This document shows positions 55,111 to 64,000 of a DNA stretch of 64,000 nt, piece by piece. Source of the DNA: Gillisia hiemivivida. Lineage in GTDB: Bacteria; Bacteroidota; Bacteroidia; Flavobacteriales; Flavobacteriaceae. The stretch is from NCBI RefSeq assembly GCF_007997295.1, contig NZ_VORY01000014.1, forward strand, positions 1 through 64,000, read 5' to 3'. Within the stretch, counting starts at the first letter, position 1. The number at the start of each line of letters is the position of its first letter. Position numbers and translations under genes: made by a program. The notes beneath the pieces are model-generated. The model had not been told where the DNA came from. It worked only from the letters and a program-made list of their open reading frames with translations, and did not search any database.

Positions 55111-55585
55111 ATCTTAACTCATTAATTTTCAAGTAGAACTCAATTAAATTATTATTAACACGAAATAGATGATAATAATAATAAAAGAAACTAGCTATCC
55201 TTCAATGCAGTATTTAATATAAAAAAGGGAGGAATACAAAATACCTTGCAAGAAGCTCAAAGGAATTTATTCCAACTATTGCCTCAAAATATTCGCAAAA
55301 AAAATTTATAACATTAGTGATGTTTGACATTTTATAAGGCACCGGAACTTATCAAACGCAAAAGCTGTCAATTGGCTATTAAATTTATATTAAAAAAGTA
55401 TAATAGGAAAGAAAAAATAATTTTTAAAAATCTACTTTACTAATTAGAACAAAACAGATCTATTTTTACACCTCAATAAAATTAACAAGATCCTAAGTTC
55501 AGTCACCAACCACTAATAGATAGACTATTAAATCATCTGAATATGAATTCCAAGATATATCGACCTATAATTTGGGAATATTTTT
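55111..55585. other. AT-rich non-coding gap upstream of the first susC
   Basis: About 475 bases of AT-rich DNA between the rpsL promoter and the susC promoter region. No open frame of note, RNA gene, repeat copy or terminator was recognised. Confidence 0.5.
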
Positions 55586-55629
55586 TTGGTTAATTAACAT
55601 ATTCTTACCACTTTCGCGGCTGGCTAATT
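55586..55629 (+). promoter_or_regulatory. probable promoter and leader motif of the first susC
   Basis: TTG (55586-55588), then 19 bases, then a degenerate -7 ending TTTC (55608-55615), then GGCTAATT (55622-55629). GGCTAATT lies 15 bases before the ATG, exactly as in the second susC (61763-61770 before 61786). Confidence 0.5.
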
Positions 55630-55644
55630 CAAATTAATTAAACA

Positions 55645-58600
55645 ATGAAAGCAAAATTCAGTAGTATTTTAACGCTATTACTAGCGTTCGTTGTGCAGAT
55701 AACTTTTGCACAACAACAGTCCGTAACGGGTACCGTTACCGACGAAGATGGGTTACCTCTACCCGGGGTAAACATAATTATTAAAGGCACTTCAACAGGT
55801 GTTCAATCAGATTTCGATGGAAACTATGCAATTCAAGCATCACAAGGTGATGTGTTGGTGTTTTCATTTATAGGTCTTGAAAGAACTGAAAAAACAGTTG
55901 GAACTTCTAACACTGTTAGTGTTGTAATGAAGTCAGATGCGTCACAACTAGATGAAGTTGTAGTAACTGCTTTAGGTATTAAGAGAGAGAAAAAATCTTT
56001 AGGTTATGCTACTCAAGAGGTAGACGGAGCAGAAGTTTCTGATGTTCCAACAACTAACTTCATGAATTCACTTTCAGGGAAGGTAGCTGGTTTGAACATT
56101 AAATCTTCTGGAACTATTGGTGGATCTTCAAACGTGATTATTCGTGGTAGTGCTTCCTTAACCGGAAACAACCAGGCATTGTTTGTAGTTGATGGCACTC
56201 CTATAAGTAATGCTAACACGAATGGTTCAAGTCAGCAATCTGGTAGAGGTGGTTATGACTATGGTAATGCCGCTGCGGACATTAATCCAAACAACATTGC
56301 TTCCATAAACGTTTTAAAAGGTGCTGCAGCAACTGCACTTTATGGCTCAAGAGCTTCAAACGGAGTGGTAATTATCACCACTAAAAGAGGAAGTAAAGGA
56401 AAAGGACTTGGAGTTTCTGTAAGCTCGAGCTTGATGCTCTCCAATGCAGACTCGGAAACCTTGCCAAAATACCAAAACGAATACGGTGCTGGATATGGTG
56501 CTTATTATCAATCTGATGATGGTTACTTTAACTTAGATGACATAGACGGTGATGGGACATTAGATGAAACCACTCCATTTACGGAAGATGCTTCCTTTGG
56601 AGCAAGATTTGATCCAAACAGATCGATTTACCAATGGAATTCAATATACCCACAATTGGATACTTACCAACAAGCTACTCCATGGTTGCCGGGAGAACGT
56701 ACTCCTAACGATCTTTGGGGAACAGGTTATACGGCTATCAACTCAGTTGCTTTAGATGGTGGATCTGAAACAGGATCTTTCAGATTATCGGCAAACAATA
56801 CTTTGCAAGAAGGGAACCTTCCAAACTCTGAGATAAAAAGAAACACTATTTCCTTAAGTGGTACTCAGGATCTATCTGAAAAATTAACCGCATCCGCAAA
56901 TGTTACTTTTACCAAAACAGACGGTAAAGGAAGATATGGAACAGGGTACGATTCAGGAAACCCAATGCAACAATTCAGACAATGGTATCAAATGAATGTT
57001 GATTTGTACGAACAAAGGGATGCATACTTTGCAACAGGTGAAAACATCACTTGGAACCCAAATGGTCCTAATAACTTAGCTCCTATCTATTCTGACAACC
57101 CATACTGGACAAGATATGAAAATTACGAAACAGATACTCGTAACAGGTATTTTGGAAATTTAGCTCTTGACTATAAACTAAACGATATTTTCAGCGTTGT
57201 AGGTAGATTCTCTTTTGATACATATGATGAATTACAGGAAGAAAGAATAAATGTTGGTAGTGCTGGTGTTGCAAGCTATTCACGTTTTAACAATCGTGTA
57301 GCCGAATATAACTACGACCTGATCCTTAACTTTAATAAGGATATTACCGAAGATCTAAACCTTGACGGTAACATTGGAGCCAACCTTAGAAGAAACTCAC
57401 AAAACTCCATTCGCGCATCTACCAATGGTGGATTGAACGCTCCTGGTTTTTACGCTTTGAGTAACTCTGCTGGACCATTAAATCCTCCTGGAGAATATGA
57501 TGCAACTTCTATGATTGATGGGGTTTATGCTAGAGCAGGTTTAGGGTATTTAGCTACTTACTACCTTGAAGGAACTATAAGAAGAGATAGATCTTCTACT
57601 TTACCAATAGCAAACAACACCTTCTACTATCCTTCTGTCTCTACAAGTATTATTCTTTCTAATATGATTGATGCACAATGGTTGAATTTCACCAAGTTAA
57701 GAGCAAACTATGCAGAAGTTGGTAGTGATACAAATGCTTATAATGTATTTAACACCTATTCTGTAACTGCTCCTTTTGGAAGTGCAGGATATGCCAGTAA
57801 CAACGCTCAATTAAACAACGCTAACCTAAAACCAGAACGTTCTAAATCTTACGAGTTTGGTATAGAGTCTGATTTCCTTAACAGAAGAATAGGATTTGAT
57901 GTTTCTTACTACAACACTCAAACTGAAGACCAAATTACTCCGGTACCAGTTTCTAATGCAACAGGTTTTGTTACCAAATTTTTAAATGCCGGTGTTGTTG
58001 AAAATAAAGGTTTTGAAGTATTGTTGAGATTAAACCCTATTAAAAGTGATGATTTCAACTGGAATATGACAGTTAACTGGGCTAAAAATGAAAGCACAGT
58101 TCTTGAGTTAACAGATGGTATAGACAATTTACAGTTAGCTTCTCTTCAGGGAGGAATATCTATTAATGCTTCCCCGGGTCAACCTTATGGAGCAATAAGA
58201 GGTACAGATTATATTTATGATGATGCAGGCAACCGTGTGGTTAATACTTCTGGCTACTACGAAAGAACGGCTACAAGTAACAATATCATCGGAAACGTTC
58301 AACCAGACTGGACAGGTGGTGTTCAAAATACCTTGAATTACAAAAACCTAAGTTTGAGCTTCCTTATTGATGTTCAAAAAGGTGGAGATATATTTTCGCT
58401 TGATACTTGGTATGGTTTTGCTACCGGTCTTTATGATCGTAGTGTTGGTTTAAATGACCTTGGAAATCCTAAAAGAAATACAATCGCCAATGGTGGTGGT
58501 GTTGTACTTCCAGGGGTAACCGCAGATGGCGCACCAAATACTGTTAGAGCAAGAACAGATTATTATGCTAACCCATATGGTTATGCCAGAGATGCAAATA

Positions 58601-58871: not shown

Positions 58872-60293
58872 ATGAAAAAATATTTTCTAACAATTATTGC
58901 GCTCGCAACTTTATGGTCCTGCCAGACAGATGAGCGATATGAAAACCTGAACAGGGATCCTAAAAACCCAACACAGGTTAAAGCTGAATTTTTATTTACT
59001 GCTGCTACGAATAGCTTGTCAGATCAAATGACCAGTGCAAACGTGAACACGAACGTTTTCAGGTTCTTTGCTCAGTATTTAACAACCACTACGTATTTGG
59101 ATGAACCAAACTATGTATTAAATCAGCGTAACATTCCCCAAAATCATTCTTCTGAACTTTACAGAGACGTGATTTTTGATCTACAGAATGCAAAAGCTGT
59201 GGTAGAAGCTGACACTGAAATAACTGAAGCTGAAAGAAGTGCCAGATTAGGGCAAATTGAAGTTTTGGAAGTGTATGCTTGGTCTGTTCAGGTAGATACT
59301 TTTGGAGATGTTCCTTATACTCAGGCTATAAACGCTGAAGAATTTCCTTCACCAGTTTATGATGATGCGGCTACAATATATGCAGACCTTATTTCAAGGT
59401 TGAATGCTGTTGGAGCAAATATTCAGGCCGGACAAGGATTCACCGGTGCAGACATTCTTTATAACGGAGACATGGAAAAGTGGAATAAATTTGCCAACTC
59501 CTTGCAACTGCGTTTAGGAATGAGATTATCTGATGTCAACCCAACATTATCTAAATCTACTGCTGAAGCTGCTATTGCAGCCGGTGTTTTCAAATCTAAT
59601 GAAGATAATGCTCAACTTGTATATCAAAGCAATCCACCAAGAACGAACCCATTATGGGTAGATTTGGTACAAAGTGGAAGAGCAGATTATTTACCTTCAG
59701 CTACTATTGTAGATATAATGAATGATCTAGATGACCCAAGAAGAGCAACCTACTTTTTTAATGAAACTGTAGATGACTATATTGGCGGAGTATATGGAGG
59801 AAGTAATAACTATGGGTCATATTCTCATGTAGGGGAGGTTTTCTTAGACCCAACTTTACCAGGAATCCTTTTGGATTATGTTGAAGTAGAGTTTAATCTG
59901 ACTAAAGCTGCAGATTTAGGCTATACAGGAGCAGGAGTTGCAAGTGCACATTACAATGCAGCAATTACCGCATCTATAGAATATTGGGGTGGTAATGCAG
60001 CGGATGCAACGGCATATTTAGCGCAACCATCAGTAGCCTATGATGGTTCTAACGAACAATTTGCTACTCAATTTTGGATAGCCATGTTTAACAATTCTTT
60101 CGAGGGATGGTCTGTTTGGAGAAAATATGATGCTCCGGCACTTGTGTTACCTGAAGATTCAGGAAGTCCTGTACCCTTGAGATATACATATCCTGTTAAT
60201 GAGCAAAACCTGAACTTAGCTAACTATGAAGCTGCATCAGCCGCTATTGGTGGAGATGATCAGCAAACTCCTATTTTCTGGGATGTAAATTAA
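58872..60293 (+). CDS. SusD/RagB family substrate-binding lipoprotein
   Basis: Surface lipoprotein that acts as a lid and ligand-binding partner of SusC. The 473 residues carry a lipoprotein signal ending LWSC (Cys17) followed by QTDER, acidic residues that fit a surface-export signal. LNRDPKNPTQV after the signal and ALYDVF-like helices with EVYAWSVQVDTFGDVPYTQA are typical of the SusD-like_2 subgroup. It sits between susC and a third lipoprotein, the usual uptake unit. Confidence 0.93.
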   Translation: MKKYFLTIIALATLWSCQTDERYENLNRDPKNPTQVKAEFLFTAATNSLSDQMTSANVNTNVFRFFAQYLTTTTYLDEPNYVLNQRNIPQNHSSELYRDVIFDLQNAKAVVEADTEITEAERSARLGQIEVLEVYAWSVQVDTFGDVPYTQAINAEEFPSPVYDDAATIYADLISRLNAVGANIQAGQGFTGADILYNGDMEKWNKFANSLQLRLGMRLSDVNPTLSKSTAEAAIAAGVFKSNEDNAQLVYQSNPPRTNPLWVDLVQSGRADYLPSATIVDIMNDLDDPRRATYFFNETVDDYIGGVYGGSNNYGSYSHVGEVFLDPTLPGILLDYVEVEFNLTKAADLGYTGAGVASAHYNAAITASIEYWGGNAADATAYLAQPSVAYDGSNEQFATQFWIAMFNNSFEGWSVWRKYDAPALVLPEDSGSPVPLRYTYPVNEQNLNLANYEAASAAIGGDDQQTPIFWDVN

Positions 60294-60330: not shown

Positions 60331-61455
60331 ATGAAAAAACATTTTAAATCTATAAGCTTATGTCTTCTTATTGCAGTTGGTTTTTCCTCCTGCACTACAG
60401 ATGACAATAGTTTAGACCCTACCAATCTAGGCGGTTATGCACATTTGACAGATCGTAAAATAAGCGTTTTCGATACAAATACTGACCTAAATTTGAATTT
60501 ACTCACCGCTTCAGGGGTTACTGTTGAAGCTGTTGAAATCATGCAGGATGGATCGGTCATAGCAAACGCTGTTGTTTCTGGTGAAACTGCTTCATTTAAT
60601 ACATCTACTTTAGGTGCATTAGAAACTGGTAGTATTTCTTTATTTATTTCATCTAGCCTTTCCAATGGAAAAAAAGCAGGAGATCCTGCTTCCATAAGAG
60701 TGGCAGATGCTATCTCTTTCGTTGACACAGATGACCAACCTCTACCTGAATCTGTGAAATTCATGGATACTACAACAACAATTTTAGCCTATAGCACATA
60801 TACCCGCTCGGCAACAATTGATGATGTAACTTTATTCTGGAAGAAGAATGATGCTGGAACTTACGCAGAGTCGAACATGGTATTGGATGTTGATGGAGAT
60901 GAAATCAATTTAGGTGACATTGACTATACTGAATACGACGCAAAAGTAAATGACACTCTTTATTATAAGTTTGTTGCTAACAGCGGAGCTTTAAGCCAGG
61001 AAATAGAAACAAAAATTGCAATTCTTCCACAAACTTTTGGAGCAGCAACTAATGCTACTTTATCTGCTGATGCAGATATGAAAGAATACAATCTAGGTTC
61101 TGGAGCGTATGCAGCTGCAGGCGAAACAGGTGAAATGAGCTTTGTAGACCCATCAGGTTTTGAATTAGTTGTTGACTTCGTAAAAGCAACTGTTCCTGCG
61201 GGAATGACCGCTGAGGAGTATTTCAACAATACAGACCTAATGGTAGCTGAAGCTGCATTTAATGCAGGTACTAAAACAACCTCTGTTAGTGATGTTAGTA
61301 ATGGAGATGTATACATCTATGAAATTACAAGACAAAATGAAGATGAAGAAGACTTAGTTTACTACGGTATCATAAAAATTGGTAACACAATTGTTGTAAA
61401 TGGAATCAACAGCTTTGAGTTTAAATATGCTGAAGGAACTATCATAAGAAAATAG
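60331..61455 (+). CDS. surface lipoprotein in SusE-like position
   Basis: A 374-residue lipoprotein (signal ending GFSSC, Cys21, followed by TTDDN). The mature chain is beta-rich, with Thr/Ser/Asp-rich repeats suggesting stacked Ig-like or SusE-type domains (VEAVEIMQDGSVIANAVVSG, ...VTLFWKKNDAGTY). The position right after susD and the acidic residues after Cys suggest a surface glycan- or peptide-binding accessory protein. No sequence motif proves this. Confidence 0.7.
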   Translation: MKKHFKSISLCLLIAVGFSSCTTDDNSLDPTNLGGYAHLTDRKISVFDTNTDLNLNLLTASGVTVEAVEIMQDGSVIANAVVSGETASFNTSTLGALETGSISLFISSSLSNGKKAGDPASIRVADAISFVDTDDQPLPESVKFMDTTTTILAYSTYTRSATIDDVTLFWKKNDAGTYAESNMVLDVDGDEINLGDIDYTEYDAKVNDTLYYKFVANSGALSQEIETKIAILPQTFGAATNATLSADADMKEYNLGSGAYAAAGETGEMSFVDPSGFELVVDFVKATVPAGMTAEEYFNNTDLMVAEAAFNAGTKTTSVSDVSNGDVYIYEITRQNEDEEDLVYYGIIKIGNTIVVNGINSFEFKYAEGTIIRK

Positions 61456-61485: not shown

Positions 61486-61517
61486 AAAACCCACCTCTCG
61501 CGAGGTGGGTTTTTTTA
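61486..61517 (+). terminator. intrinsic terminator of the susC-susD unit
   Basis: ACCCACCTC (61489-61497) pairs with GAGGTGGGT (61502-61510) around TCGC and ends in a run of T. It closes the first uptake unit, so the next susC is transcribed separately. Confidence 0.88.
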
Positions 61518-61785
61518 TTGGTTATTTTTTATATTCATATTACGACTTCACACCCTTCTTTTAACATTTTATTCTATTAAGGTAATAGGCCTACTGCACT
61601 TTTAGGATATGTCCATCCTTTATAAATTATCTTGTGTTATTAACAAATATTCACGTAATTGTACCTACGTATTAATACGAATGGCCATAAATTGTTGAAA
61701 GGCTATCAAATTATATTTAAAAATAATTTGCTTTATAAATAATCTTTTATCAAATTTGGCTTGGCTAATTAAAATAAACCAAAAT
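61518..61785 (+). promoter_or_regulatory. gap with probable promoter and leader motif of the second susC
   Basis: No gene was found in this gap. Near its end, TTG (61728-61730) is followed after 20 bases by CAAATTTG (61751-61758), a degenerate -7. GGCTAATT (61763-61770) follows, 15 bases before the ATG as in the first susC. Confidence 0.5.
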
Positions 61786-64000
61786 ATGAAATCAAATTTT
61801 ACTCGATTTTTAACGCTATTCTTAGCGTTAATTGCGCAAATGACATTTGCGCAACAACAAACGGTTACAGGAACCGTTACAGACACGGATGGATTACCGC
61901 TTCCCGGCGTTAATGTTCTTGTAAAAGCAGGGACTACAGGTACCCAAACTGATTTTGATGGAAAATATTCTATCCAAGCATTTCAGGAAGATGTATTAGT
62001 ATTTTCCTTTATAGGCTTGGTTAAAGCAGAATATCCGGTAGGAGATCGACGAACTATCAATGTAACTTTAAGTCCAGATGCCGCTACATTAGAGGAAGTG
62101 GTAGTAACGGCACTAGGGGTAAAAAGTACTCCACGCTCCGTTAGTTATGCAGTTGAAAATGTAAGTGCAGAAGACATTGAAAACACTGGAGAAACAAACC
62201 TTGTTAATTCCTTGGCCTCTAAGGCGGCAGGAGTTAGTGTGGTGAGTGCTTCAGGATCTGTTGGCGCCTCTGCCAATATTCGAATTAGAGGGAATACCTC
62301 TATTGGTAGATCGAATAGTCCTCTATTTATAGTTGATGGTGTTCCAATTGATAACTCTTCAACAGGAAACGCGACTGGAGGAACTGATAATTCCAACAGG
62401 GCAATTGATATAAATCAAAATGACATTGCTTCTATTGATGTATTAAAAGGTACTGCAGCACAAACTCTATATGGTTTAAGGGCTGCAAACGGAGTGATAA
62501 TAATCACCACTAAAAAAGGGCAAACTGGCGCCCCAAGCGTTTCAGTTTCTTCTACATTACAATTTAGTGAAGTTAATCAACTTCCAGACCTACAAAAAGA
62601 ATACGCTCAGGGAAGACCATTGGGCGGTGTACCTACTCACCGAGGACCTGAAACCTTTGAAGGTTTTAGCTGGGGTCCACGTATCTCTTCTTTAGAATAC
62701 GATGGGGACACAAGTTATCCTTATAGCCGATTTGGGAGATTGGTACCAGAAGGAGAAGGTAATGGTATGGCTGCAAATGCCTACGATCATTCTGACTTCT
62801 TTGTAACAGGTGTTTTAGATGAGCAAAATGTTTCAGTTCGCGGAGGTTCAGAAAAAATAAAGTATTTCCTATCTGGAGGGAAACTGCATCAAACGGGGGT
62901 TGCACCTACCGAAGAGTTTGACAGGCGTTCGTTCAGAGCGGATGTTAGCGCTAAGCTGAGAGAAGATTTTGAGGTTTCTGCAAGTGGAACTTATGTTACT
63001 TCAGGTGGACGTAGAGTTCAAAGAGGTTCTAATGTTTCGGGAATTATGTTAGGTCTTTTGAGGACTACTCCATCATTCGATAATGGTAACGGCTTAACTG
63101 GTCGTTTAGCGGCATCCACTCCAGGTACTTATGAACTGCCAGATGGTAGTCAGAGGAGTTATCGTGCTGGGGTTTATGACAACCCATACTGGACCGTGGC
63201 TAAAAACCCTTCAACTGATGATGTTAAACGTTTTATAGGAAGATTATCATTCGATTACAAACCATTGGACTGGGCTACTTTAAGAGGAACCTTGGCTTAC
63301 GATCAATATTCTGATGTTAGAAAAGCAGGGGTTGATATTAATTCTGCCGGTAATCCTCAAGGTCAGGTGTCAGATCTCACTATTTTCAGTGAAGACATCA
63401 ATTCACAGCTTCTATTTTTAATAGATAAGAATATTTCAGACAACATTACATTTAATAGTGTAATAGGTTATGACGGTTTCACAACCCAAAGTTTAACCAG
63501 AGAGTCAATAGGTAACAGTCTTACTATACCAGGATTTTTCCATGTTTCTAACACTGCAAGCCAAGCTGTATTTGAGGGTGTGGGAAGAAAAAAATTAGAT
63601 GCGCTTTTGGCTGATGCAAAGTTTGGTTTTAACAACACTTTCTTTTTGAATGGTGCCGTTAGAAATGACTGGTCCTCAACTTTACCAGAAGATAATAATG
63701 ACTTCCTATCTTACAGTGCTGGAGGTGCAATTGTATTTTCAGAGTTTTTTGATAACTCAGGTTTCTTTAATTATGGTAAATTACGTGGATCCTACGGTAA
63801 AACTGGTAACGATGCTCCTATATTTGCTACGACCACTTATTATAATGCAGCCAATGCAGGAGGTGATGGTTTTATAGATGGTAACCAGTTCCCTATATTT
63901 TCCACTGTAGCTTTTGAGAGGTCTGCACAACTAGGTAACGCAGAGATTCAACCAGAAGTTACCAAAGAATTTGAAGTAGGTGCAGAACTTAGGTTCTGGG
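61786..64000 (+). CDS. second SusC/RagA family transporter, cut by the window edge
   Basis: The frame opens with ATG at 61786 and stays open for 738 codons to the end of the window, without stop. It starts with a signal peptide very like that of the first susC (MKSNFTRFLTLFLALIAQMT, then FAQQQ). A carboxypeptidase-regulatory-like domain follows (TVTGTVTDTDGLPLPGVNVL), then LEEVVVTALGVKSTPRSVSY and the plug with IRIRGNTSIGRSNSPLFIVD and GVIIITTKKGQ. About two thirds of a usual SusC is present. Its SusD partner would lie beyond the right edge. Confidence 0.94.
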   Translation, partial: MKSNFTRFLTLFLALIAQMTFAQQQTVTGTVTDTDGLPLPGVNVLVKAGTTGTQTDFDGKYSIQAFQEDVLVFSFIGLVKAEYPVGDRRTINVTLSPDAATLEEVVVTALGVKSTPRSVSYAVENVSAEDIENTGETNLVNSLASKAAGVSVVSASGSVGASANIRIRGNTSIGRSNSPLFIVDGVPIDNSSTGNATGGTDNSNRAIDINQNDIASIDVLKGTAAQTLYGLRAANGVIIITTKKGQTGAPSVSVSSTLQFSEVNQLPDLQKEYAQGRPLGGVPTHRGPETFEGFSWGPRISSLEYDGDTSYPYSRFGRLVPEGEGNGMAANAYDHSDFFVTGVLDEQNVSVRGGSEKIKYFLSGGKLHQTGVAPTEEFDRRSFRADVSAKLREDFEVSASGTYVTSGGRRVQRGSNVSGIMLGLLRTTPSFDNGNGLTGRLAASTPGTYELPDGSQRSYRAGVYDNPYWTVAKNPSTDDVKRFIGRLSFDYKPLDWATLRGTLAYDQYSDVRKAGVDINSAGNPQGQVSDLTIFSEDINSQLLFLIDKNISDNITFNSVIGYDGFTTQSLTRESIGNSLTIPGFFHVSNTASQAVFEGVGRKKLDALLADAKFGFNNTFFLNGAVRNDWSSTLPEDNNDFLSYSAGGAIVFSEFFDNSGFFNYGKLRGSYGKTGNDAPIFATTTYYNAANAGGDGFIDGNQFPIFSTVAFERSAQLGNAEIQPEVTKEFEVGAELRFW
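61811..61878 (+). other. three hairpins in the signal-peptide codons of the second susC
   Basis: TAACGCTA/TAGCGTTA (61811-61830), TTGCGCAAAT/ATTTGCGCAA (61832-61854) and AACGGTT/AACCGTT (61860-61878). These occupy the same codons as those of the first susC. The third may follow from the V-T-G-T-V-T amino-acid palindrome alone. Confidence 0.55.

Follow-up and report, generated by a model that had tools for sequence, protein, structure and literature searches.

Two hairpins conserved in the early coding sequence of flavobacterial susC genes: a candidate starting block for ribosomes

Introduction

Why should two susC genes of one genome carry the same RNA hairpins inside their signal-peptide codons? 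The question is raised by the window analysed here, i.e., the whole stretch of 64,000 nucleotides (nt) from the start of contig NZ_VORY01000014.1 of Gillisia hiemivivida (RefSeq GCF_007997295.1), in which two such genes, called A and B in what follows, lie close to each other (Table 1). A preliminary description of these two sequences had reported three hairpins at identical positions early in both genes, with a T-A pair in one being C-G in the other, and had taken this as a sign that pairing is kept at the RNA level by compensatory change, conceding that shared ancestry or gene conversion could explain part of the similarity and that two genes are a small sample. The last point was well taken, since two genes are too few alone and it is wider gene sets that carry the case. 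From these sets it emerges that hairpins 1 and 2 are conserved structured RNA, paired beyond what the protein and codon usage account for, while the third hairpin is of another kind.

Pairing beyond protein and codon usage

Counted along the coding sequence, hairpin 1 occupies nt 28-43 and hairpin 2 about nt 47-69. The stretch holding both folds at -20.9 and -21.6 kcal/mol in genes A and B, respectively, with a folding z-score of -6.1 in each and none of 200 shuffles equally stable. Measured against synonymous-codon shuffles, nt 25-72 of genes A and B rank 1 and 2 among 58 open reading frames (ORFs), namely 57 of the 65 ORFs of the window (the eight overlapping ones left out) and gene B. The same 48 positions form the most structured stretch inside each gene, narrowly so in gene A (z -4.4 against -4.1 for the next, over 131 segments) and with z -9.4 in gene B (90 segments). 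The pair change that had drawn attention is indeed there, at pair 50-66 of hairpin 2: on the 5' side codon 17 goes from GTG (Val) to GCG (Ala), and on the 3' side codon 22 goes silently from GCA to GCG.

Two larger collections were compared with these genes. The first, of 85 susC genes, was chosen by protein similarity, and the structure model was not used for it: from 90 loci (L028-L117), two in the wrong orientation (L037, L053) were removed, six of the remaining 88 were dropped for being off the gapless register (L059, L078, L105, L111, L112, L116), and L004, L013 and L014 were added to the 82 left. The second, of 247 rows, derives from 264 open, de-duplicated rows out of 359 loci (from which the leader-complement loci and weak hits of the structure model had been excluded), less 16 that scored at or below 0 and L111, off register; L059, one codon shorter though open, is missing from it, gapless scoring being probably unsuited to that locus. 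This second set was partly picked by the structure model itself and is therefore biased towards structure. A single register from ATG to cleavage site is common to 82 of the 88 rows, and the signal peptide is alike across genes (LTLLLAFVVQxTFAQ).

Whole hairpin 1 cores occur in 78 of the 85 genes, against 62.5 under within-column synonymous shuffling, and whole hairpin 2 cores in 60, against 52.2; none of 1000 shuffles reaches either observed value, and a gene-wide codon-usage null would give 1.3 and 2.8 cores. Among the 247 rows the counts are 210 for hairpin 1 (nulls 146.1 and 9.4) and 154 for hairpin 2 (nulls 118.5 and 7.3), unmatched in 500 runs of each null. The tightest link is that between codons 10 and 14, where the third base of a Thr codon tracks an Ala/Val swap. 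ACG/GCG is found in 60 of the 85 genes, ACA/GTG in 16 and other combinations in nine, the mixed forms ACG/GTG and ACA/GCG being absent; the 247 rows hold 134 ACG/GCG, 31 ACA/GTG and again neither mixed form, and L111 contributes a further combination, ACC/GGG. Pair 30-41 is nonetheless imperfect over the 247 rows (GC 150, AT 59, GT 20, AC 4, other 14). RNAalifold finds the helices of both hairpins unprompted, with GC 59, AU 13 and CG 1 at columns 72-83 of alignment A2.

Covariation on trees

When all pairs of positions in the 247 rows are scored by a G-test, the top three are 30-41, 28-43 and 29-42, all nested in hairpin 1, and the sixth is pair 50-66 of hairpin 2. An R-scape-like null (our own script, not R-scape) gave pair 30-41 a single-pair E-value of 0.010 in the 85 rows, or 0.145 with a column-rate null. 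Because such E-values weakened with more rows (from 0.010 to 0.16), a test counting events on trees was added later. On the tree of the 247 rows, both bases of pair 30-41 changed with pairing kept along 19 branches, against maxima of 7 and 9 over all pairs under two nulls, each simulated 100 times with the top count at any pair taken; the four-pair helix at 28-43 has 27 events against maxima of 12 and 14. On a tree made without the element the figures rise to 28 (maxima 7 and 13) for the pair and 41 (12 and 17) for the helix. Flavobacterium caseinilyticum and F. ranwuense have three adjacent pairs swapped together (GTACTA/TAGTAC).

Covariation thus exceeds what phylogeny explains by the event test, the single-pair E-values being mixed. 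Compensatory retention of RNA pairing, as had been suggested, stands against the codon-preserving null for hairpins 1 and 2, and against the event-test nulls at pair 30-41 and its helix. Shared ancestry as the sole cause is contradicted by the 19-28 double changes at one pair, where null maxima are 7-13, and also by the split between ACG/GCG and ACA/GTG, with no mixed case among 85 genes or 247 rows.

Strand signature

An inverted repeat may be kept as an RNA helix or as a DNA dyad, and the departures from perfect pairing bear on this. Relative to codon usage, both hairpins together have 106 G-U type cells where 140 are expected and 47 A-C type cells where 136 are expected, a comparison limited by the fact that the two kinds of cells come from different codon positions. 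The signature is marked in hairpin 1 (G-U 58 against 93, A-C 2 against 64) and weaker in hairpin 2 (48 against 47, and 45 against 72); over the 247 rows the observed/expected ratios are 0.58 for G-U and 0.28 for A-C. At pair 32-39, G-U is seen 33 times against 26.7 expected and the remaining mismatches 3 times against 24.5; at pair 50-66 the values are 14 against 6.9 and 6 against 51.0. On balance, the pattern fits a helix in the sense RNA, not a dyad in the DNA.

Hairpin 3

The claim of three hairpins at identical positions is not borne out, since the stem of the third spans nt 79-95 of gene A but nt 75-93 of gene B. Likewise, the codon-preserving covariation test that had been proposed comes out in favour of hairpins 1 and 2 and not of whole hairpin 3 stems, of which the 85 genes hold 2 and 4, numbers reached by 399 and 169 of 1000 shuffles. 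Single cells in the register of gene A lie slightly above the codon null in those genes (0.563 against 0.545, 7 of 1000) and show no excess over gene-wide usage (486 of 1000). Among the 247 rows that register is rare, yet in excess (12 against 4.0 and 4.7), and that of gene B counts 23 against 18.5 (78 of 500) and against 15.0 (10 of 500). The register mismatch, the rarity and the codon null rule out hairpin 3 as a conserved general structure, and the V-T-G-T-V-T peptide probably accounts for most of it.

Leader and start region

A leader motif precedes the hairpins. CTAAYTC is present in 190 of the 247 rows, and in 162 of these 190 it lies 20-21 nt ahead of the ATG; gene B reads CTAATTA, one change off CTAATTC. 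The upstream consensus of 187 anchored rows is tTG.ttt.ttaac..tttaTt..GA..TTTGGCg..GA, followed directly by CTAATTCAAA. In Flavobacterium johnsoniae promoters, the motif TAHHTTTG is described 4-5 nt before the transcript start (PMC6847099). If that spacing applies, the transcript would begin 2-3 nt before CTAATTC, at about 55621-55622 in gene A, with GA..TTTG as the box, and the leader would measure about 22-24 nt, barely sufficient for a 30S subunit. Some 27 coding bases without conserved pairing separate the ATG from hairpin 1. By eye, the leader might also pair with codons 5-9 (ACUAA/UUAGU, AAUUC/GAAUU), a possibility discarded on being lost in MRTKLNG-type rows.

The promoter-like block itself deserves a separate remark: across genera (187 rows; upstream of 55623 and 61764 in the window) it reads GA..TTTGGC, not TA..TTTG, and the weakness of this -7 box may point to a dedicated sigma factor or to an activator.

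Distribution

The genome of G. hiemivivida has 27 matches to the TonB-receptor plug, and four of them bear the signal-peptide type [LF]TL.L..[LFM].[AV]Q.T.AQ: the two genes of the window and a further one each on contigs 7 and 23. Structure model R1, built on rows that include these four genes, hits only them in this genome, with nothing more below E 0.8. With the early coding stretch of 24 of the receptor genes folded, the four bearers rank 1, 3, 4 and 5. In a FastTree tree of the receptors (topology only) the four are not one clade, and the element is therefore not merely the mark of one SusC subfamily. Separately, a TonB-type receptor gene without the element (L023, contig 4) has strong early coding structure of its own, with z -6.2.

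Within Flavobacteriaceae, the structure model at E <= 0.001 has matches in 256 of 299 genomes, in 228 of the 249 good ones and in 205 of 236 genera, with one to six matches per positive genome. At E <= 0.01 it matches 55 of 61 genomes of one genus, probably Flavobacterium, and 19 of 198 genomes drawn across the phylum, all 19 belonging to Flavobacteriaceae (159 non-matching genomes of this draw are not listed by kinship). No Rfam family reaches its gathering score in the set of four element-bearing loci that was scanned; in the window, where the scan covered 55300-56100, around the start of gene A, the single match fell below threshold and lay on the opposite strand (19 against 61.5 bits). Among the open-licence literature matches listed, no title concerns an RNA element in a flavobacterial susC coding sequence.

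The two genes and their neighbours

The nearest named relatives of gene A are from Gillisia, at 82-85% identity, and the full open frame of gene B has 1088 aa. Nine named relatives have an ORF of 473-488 aa behind susC; the gap is 10-15 nt in all but one, where it is 157 nt. A 374-aa ORF (60331-61455) behind the SusD-like gene matches nothing in Pfam or NCBIfam at E 0.001. The terminator-like site lies upstream of gene B, which is, for this reason, probably its own transcription unit. Both SusC N-termini (55666-56016 and 61807-62235) also match NCBIfam NF053692, a beta-barrel-assembly machinery protein of the BamP family, at 24.8 and 26.7 bits, weak scores far under the 230-bit cut-off.

Table 1. 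Features of the two susC loci, in positions of the window
Feature	Position	Strand	Basis or remark
5' leader, gene A	55621..55644	+	conserved GCTAATTCAAA motif from 55623; motif counts, upstream consensus
susC gene A, SusC/RagA TonB-linked outer-membrane protein, 1071 aa	55645..58860	+	ATG at 55645; TIGR04056 624.7 bits; Pfam
Hairpin 1, gene A, codons 9-15	55671..55688	+	AACGCTA-TTAC-TAGCGTT; fold z, codon nulls, event test
Hairpin 2, gene A, codons 16-24	55690..55714	+	pair nt 50-66 is T-A
Hairpin 3, gene A	55723..55739	+	lineage-specific or incidental, out of V-T-G-T-V-T codons
SusD-like_2 partner lipoprotein gene	58872..60293	+	PF12771 E 4.7e-109; comes after gene A
Intrinsic terminator-like site	61486..61513	+	12-pair stem and T tail
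5' leader, gene B	61764..61785	+	GCTAATTAAAA; inside structure-model match
susC gene B	61786..63999	+	ATG at 61786; TIGR04056 451.2 bits; 738 aa inside the window, runs past its end
Hairpin 1, gene B	about 61810..61831	+	AACGCTA-TTCT-TAGCGTT (61812-61829); fold z, synonymous shuffles
Hairpin 2, gene B	61832..61854	+	pair nt 50-66 is C-G
Hairpin 3, gene B	61860..61878	+	register unlike that of gene A; folding, 247-row counts

Discussion

What could such hairpins be for? Sequence comparison points to a leader motif at a near-fixed distance from the ATG and to two hairpins kept paired on the sense strand, whose loops change, and in some lineages their stem sequences too, while the pairing stays. 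We propose, with a probability of about 0.55, that they form a cis-acting RNA element, common to a subset of flavobacterial susC mRNAs, which serves as a “starting block” for the ribosome. It takes up the lack of Shine-Dalgarno sequences in this phylum (PMC6847099); for F. johnsoniae, structure is described as tuning initiation, and pairing as lower between -20 and +20 (PMC6847099). A transcript starting 2-3 nt before CTAATTC would have a short leader, and hairpins directly in front of the ribosome at initiation would hold or position the 30S subunit at the AUG. This would raise initiation on outer-membrane transporter mRNAs, or make it adjustable, and a trans-acting small RNA (sRNA) or protein could regulate it if it melted the hairpins or bound to the leader. 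Of the roles originally suggested, i.e., translational control, an sRNA target or mRNA stability, the first seems to fit best. A bolder version, which we regard as rather less likely than not, would see here a transferable start cassette of core SusC transporters. It would be made of a shared promoter, a leader of 22-24 nt tagged at its 5' end and two coding hairpins that serve both as starting block and as regulatory switch, and in it the signal peptide would be partly chosen by RNA pairing and not by secretion.

Several observations weigh against the starting-block proposal. Over the 247 rows, the single-pair E-values of pairs 30-41, 28-43 and 29-42 are 0.16, 0.51 and 0.76, and with the column-rate null 1.3, 2.6 and 3.3, so that these pairs are singly non-significant. 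The strand signature is reversed at the loop-closing pair 33-38, where G-U is found 28 times against 57.5 expected and T-T 53 times against 58.2 (247 rows). When 120 of the 247 rows are folded, the start region is barely more open than the codon null: mean pairing is 0.27 against 0.30 upstream and 0.45 against 0.49 over nt 1-20, and over nt 21-27 pairing even exceeds the null (0.66 against 0.54). Hairpin 1 begins at +28, farther out than the stem-loop of Escherichia coli fepA (about +20), with which it is compared below. The model has no match in 43 of the 299 family genomes, 21 of them among the 249 good ones. Finally, five of six Psychroflexus loci (L187, L189, L190, L200, L204) retain the leader motif and lack both hairpins at these places, with 1-2 of 4 core pairs left in hairpin 1 and 2-3 of 5 in hairpin 2; another, single stem is predicted there at nt 34-72 (-7.0 to -9.6 kcal/mol), and the hairpin structure may have been either replaced or lost. 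The sixth locus, L193, lacks the leader motif too.

Among the alternatives, the least unlikely is that the element is the target of an sRNA or an RNA-binding protein, with the hairpins presenting or hiding the site. In Bacteroides thetaiotaomicron, FopS sRNAs are reported to base-pair with susC-type mRNAs close to the start codon (PMC11697453), and the leader motif CTAATTCAAA is conserved. The loops, however, vary (codons 12, 19 and 20) and some stems differ, which speaks against a fixed seed inside the hairpins and makes a structural initiation aid fit better than a sequence-specific seed; this argument touches the hairpins only, and the conserved leader could still hold one. The leader complement TTTGAATTAG has 37 sites in the own genome (14+23) against 22 (9+13) for the reversed control, and this 10-mer count, with 20 of the 37 sites inspected, gave no trans-acting partner; moreover, FopS is described as conserved within Bacteroidaceae (PMC11697453). 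It is rather doubtful, and a little more so than an sRNA target, that the hairpins shield the mRNA from decay or pause the RNA polymerase near the promoter without a role in initiation. Two stable adjoining stems early in a transcript would suit such a function, but they would lie some 50 nt inside it, behind a mostly open predicted 5' end, every translating ribosome would unwind them, and no U-rich tail is seen behind them by eye.

The two other alternatives are far less probable. That the repeats act as DNA, as a regulator binding site or a recombination site, is suggested by perfect inverted repeats doubling as DNA dyads and by the conserved promoter-like block directly upstream. The strand test disfavours it: G-U is tolerated more than A-C, a distinction that a DNA dyad would not make, and at pairs 32-39 and 50-66 also above other mismatches, so that we consider this reading highly improbable. 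Least credible of all is a coincidence of signal-peptide residues, codon bias, shared ancestry or gene conversion between paralogues. Although the signal peptides are similar between the genes and hairpin 3 is probably of such origin, the codon-preserving nulls, the event test and the linked exchange of Ala/Val with ACG/ACA without mixed cases stand against it; it is contradicted for hairpins 1 and 2 and holds for most of hairpin 3.

The starting-block proposal bears on how ribosomes of Bacteroidota pick start codons without Shine-Dalgarno sequences, and it offers a conserved and testable structure at a fixed place past the AUG of outer-membrane importer mRNAs. The hairpins are also a clean case of signal-peptide residues changing in step with a synonymous base some way off, the RNA helix being preserved, which calls for caution in work on signal-peptide evolution and codon usage. 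They might, in addition, become a tool for tuning expression in flavobacteria.

Comparison with known systems

The E. coli fepA mRNA has an activating stem-loop at about +20, and bamA has one too (Jagodnik, Chiaruttini and Guillier 2017, as cited in the review PMC12692685). As in these, the element described here has a stem-loop shortly after the start codon, in the early coding sequence (hairpin 1, +28 to +43), of an outer-membrane protein mRNA, and fepA, going by the same review, encodes a TonB-dependent receptor as well. Unlike them, it consists of two hairpins, is common in much of a family whose members lack Shine-Dalgarno sequences, has a conserved leader and is maintained by linked amino-acid changes. 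Closer in kinship is the post-transcriptional control of B. thetaiotaomicron by the FopS sRNA and RbpB, in the same phylum and likewise directed at the region around the start of susC mRNAs; FopS is described as pairing sequence-specifically in trans in Bacteroidaceae, whereas the element proposed here would be a cis structure with free loops (PMC11697453). In Flavobacterium psychrophilum, structured 5' elements and the Flavo-1 motif have been reported, together with a SusCD pair having homologues in the whole family (PMC9723704). These are likewise flavobacterial cis RNA structures, some of them conserved between genera, but in the available text of that article, supplementary tables aside, an element in the susC coding region is not mentioned.
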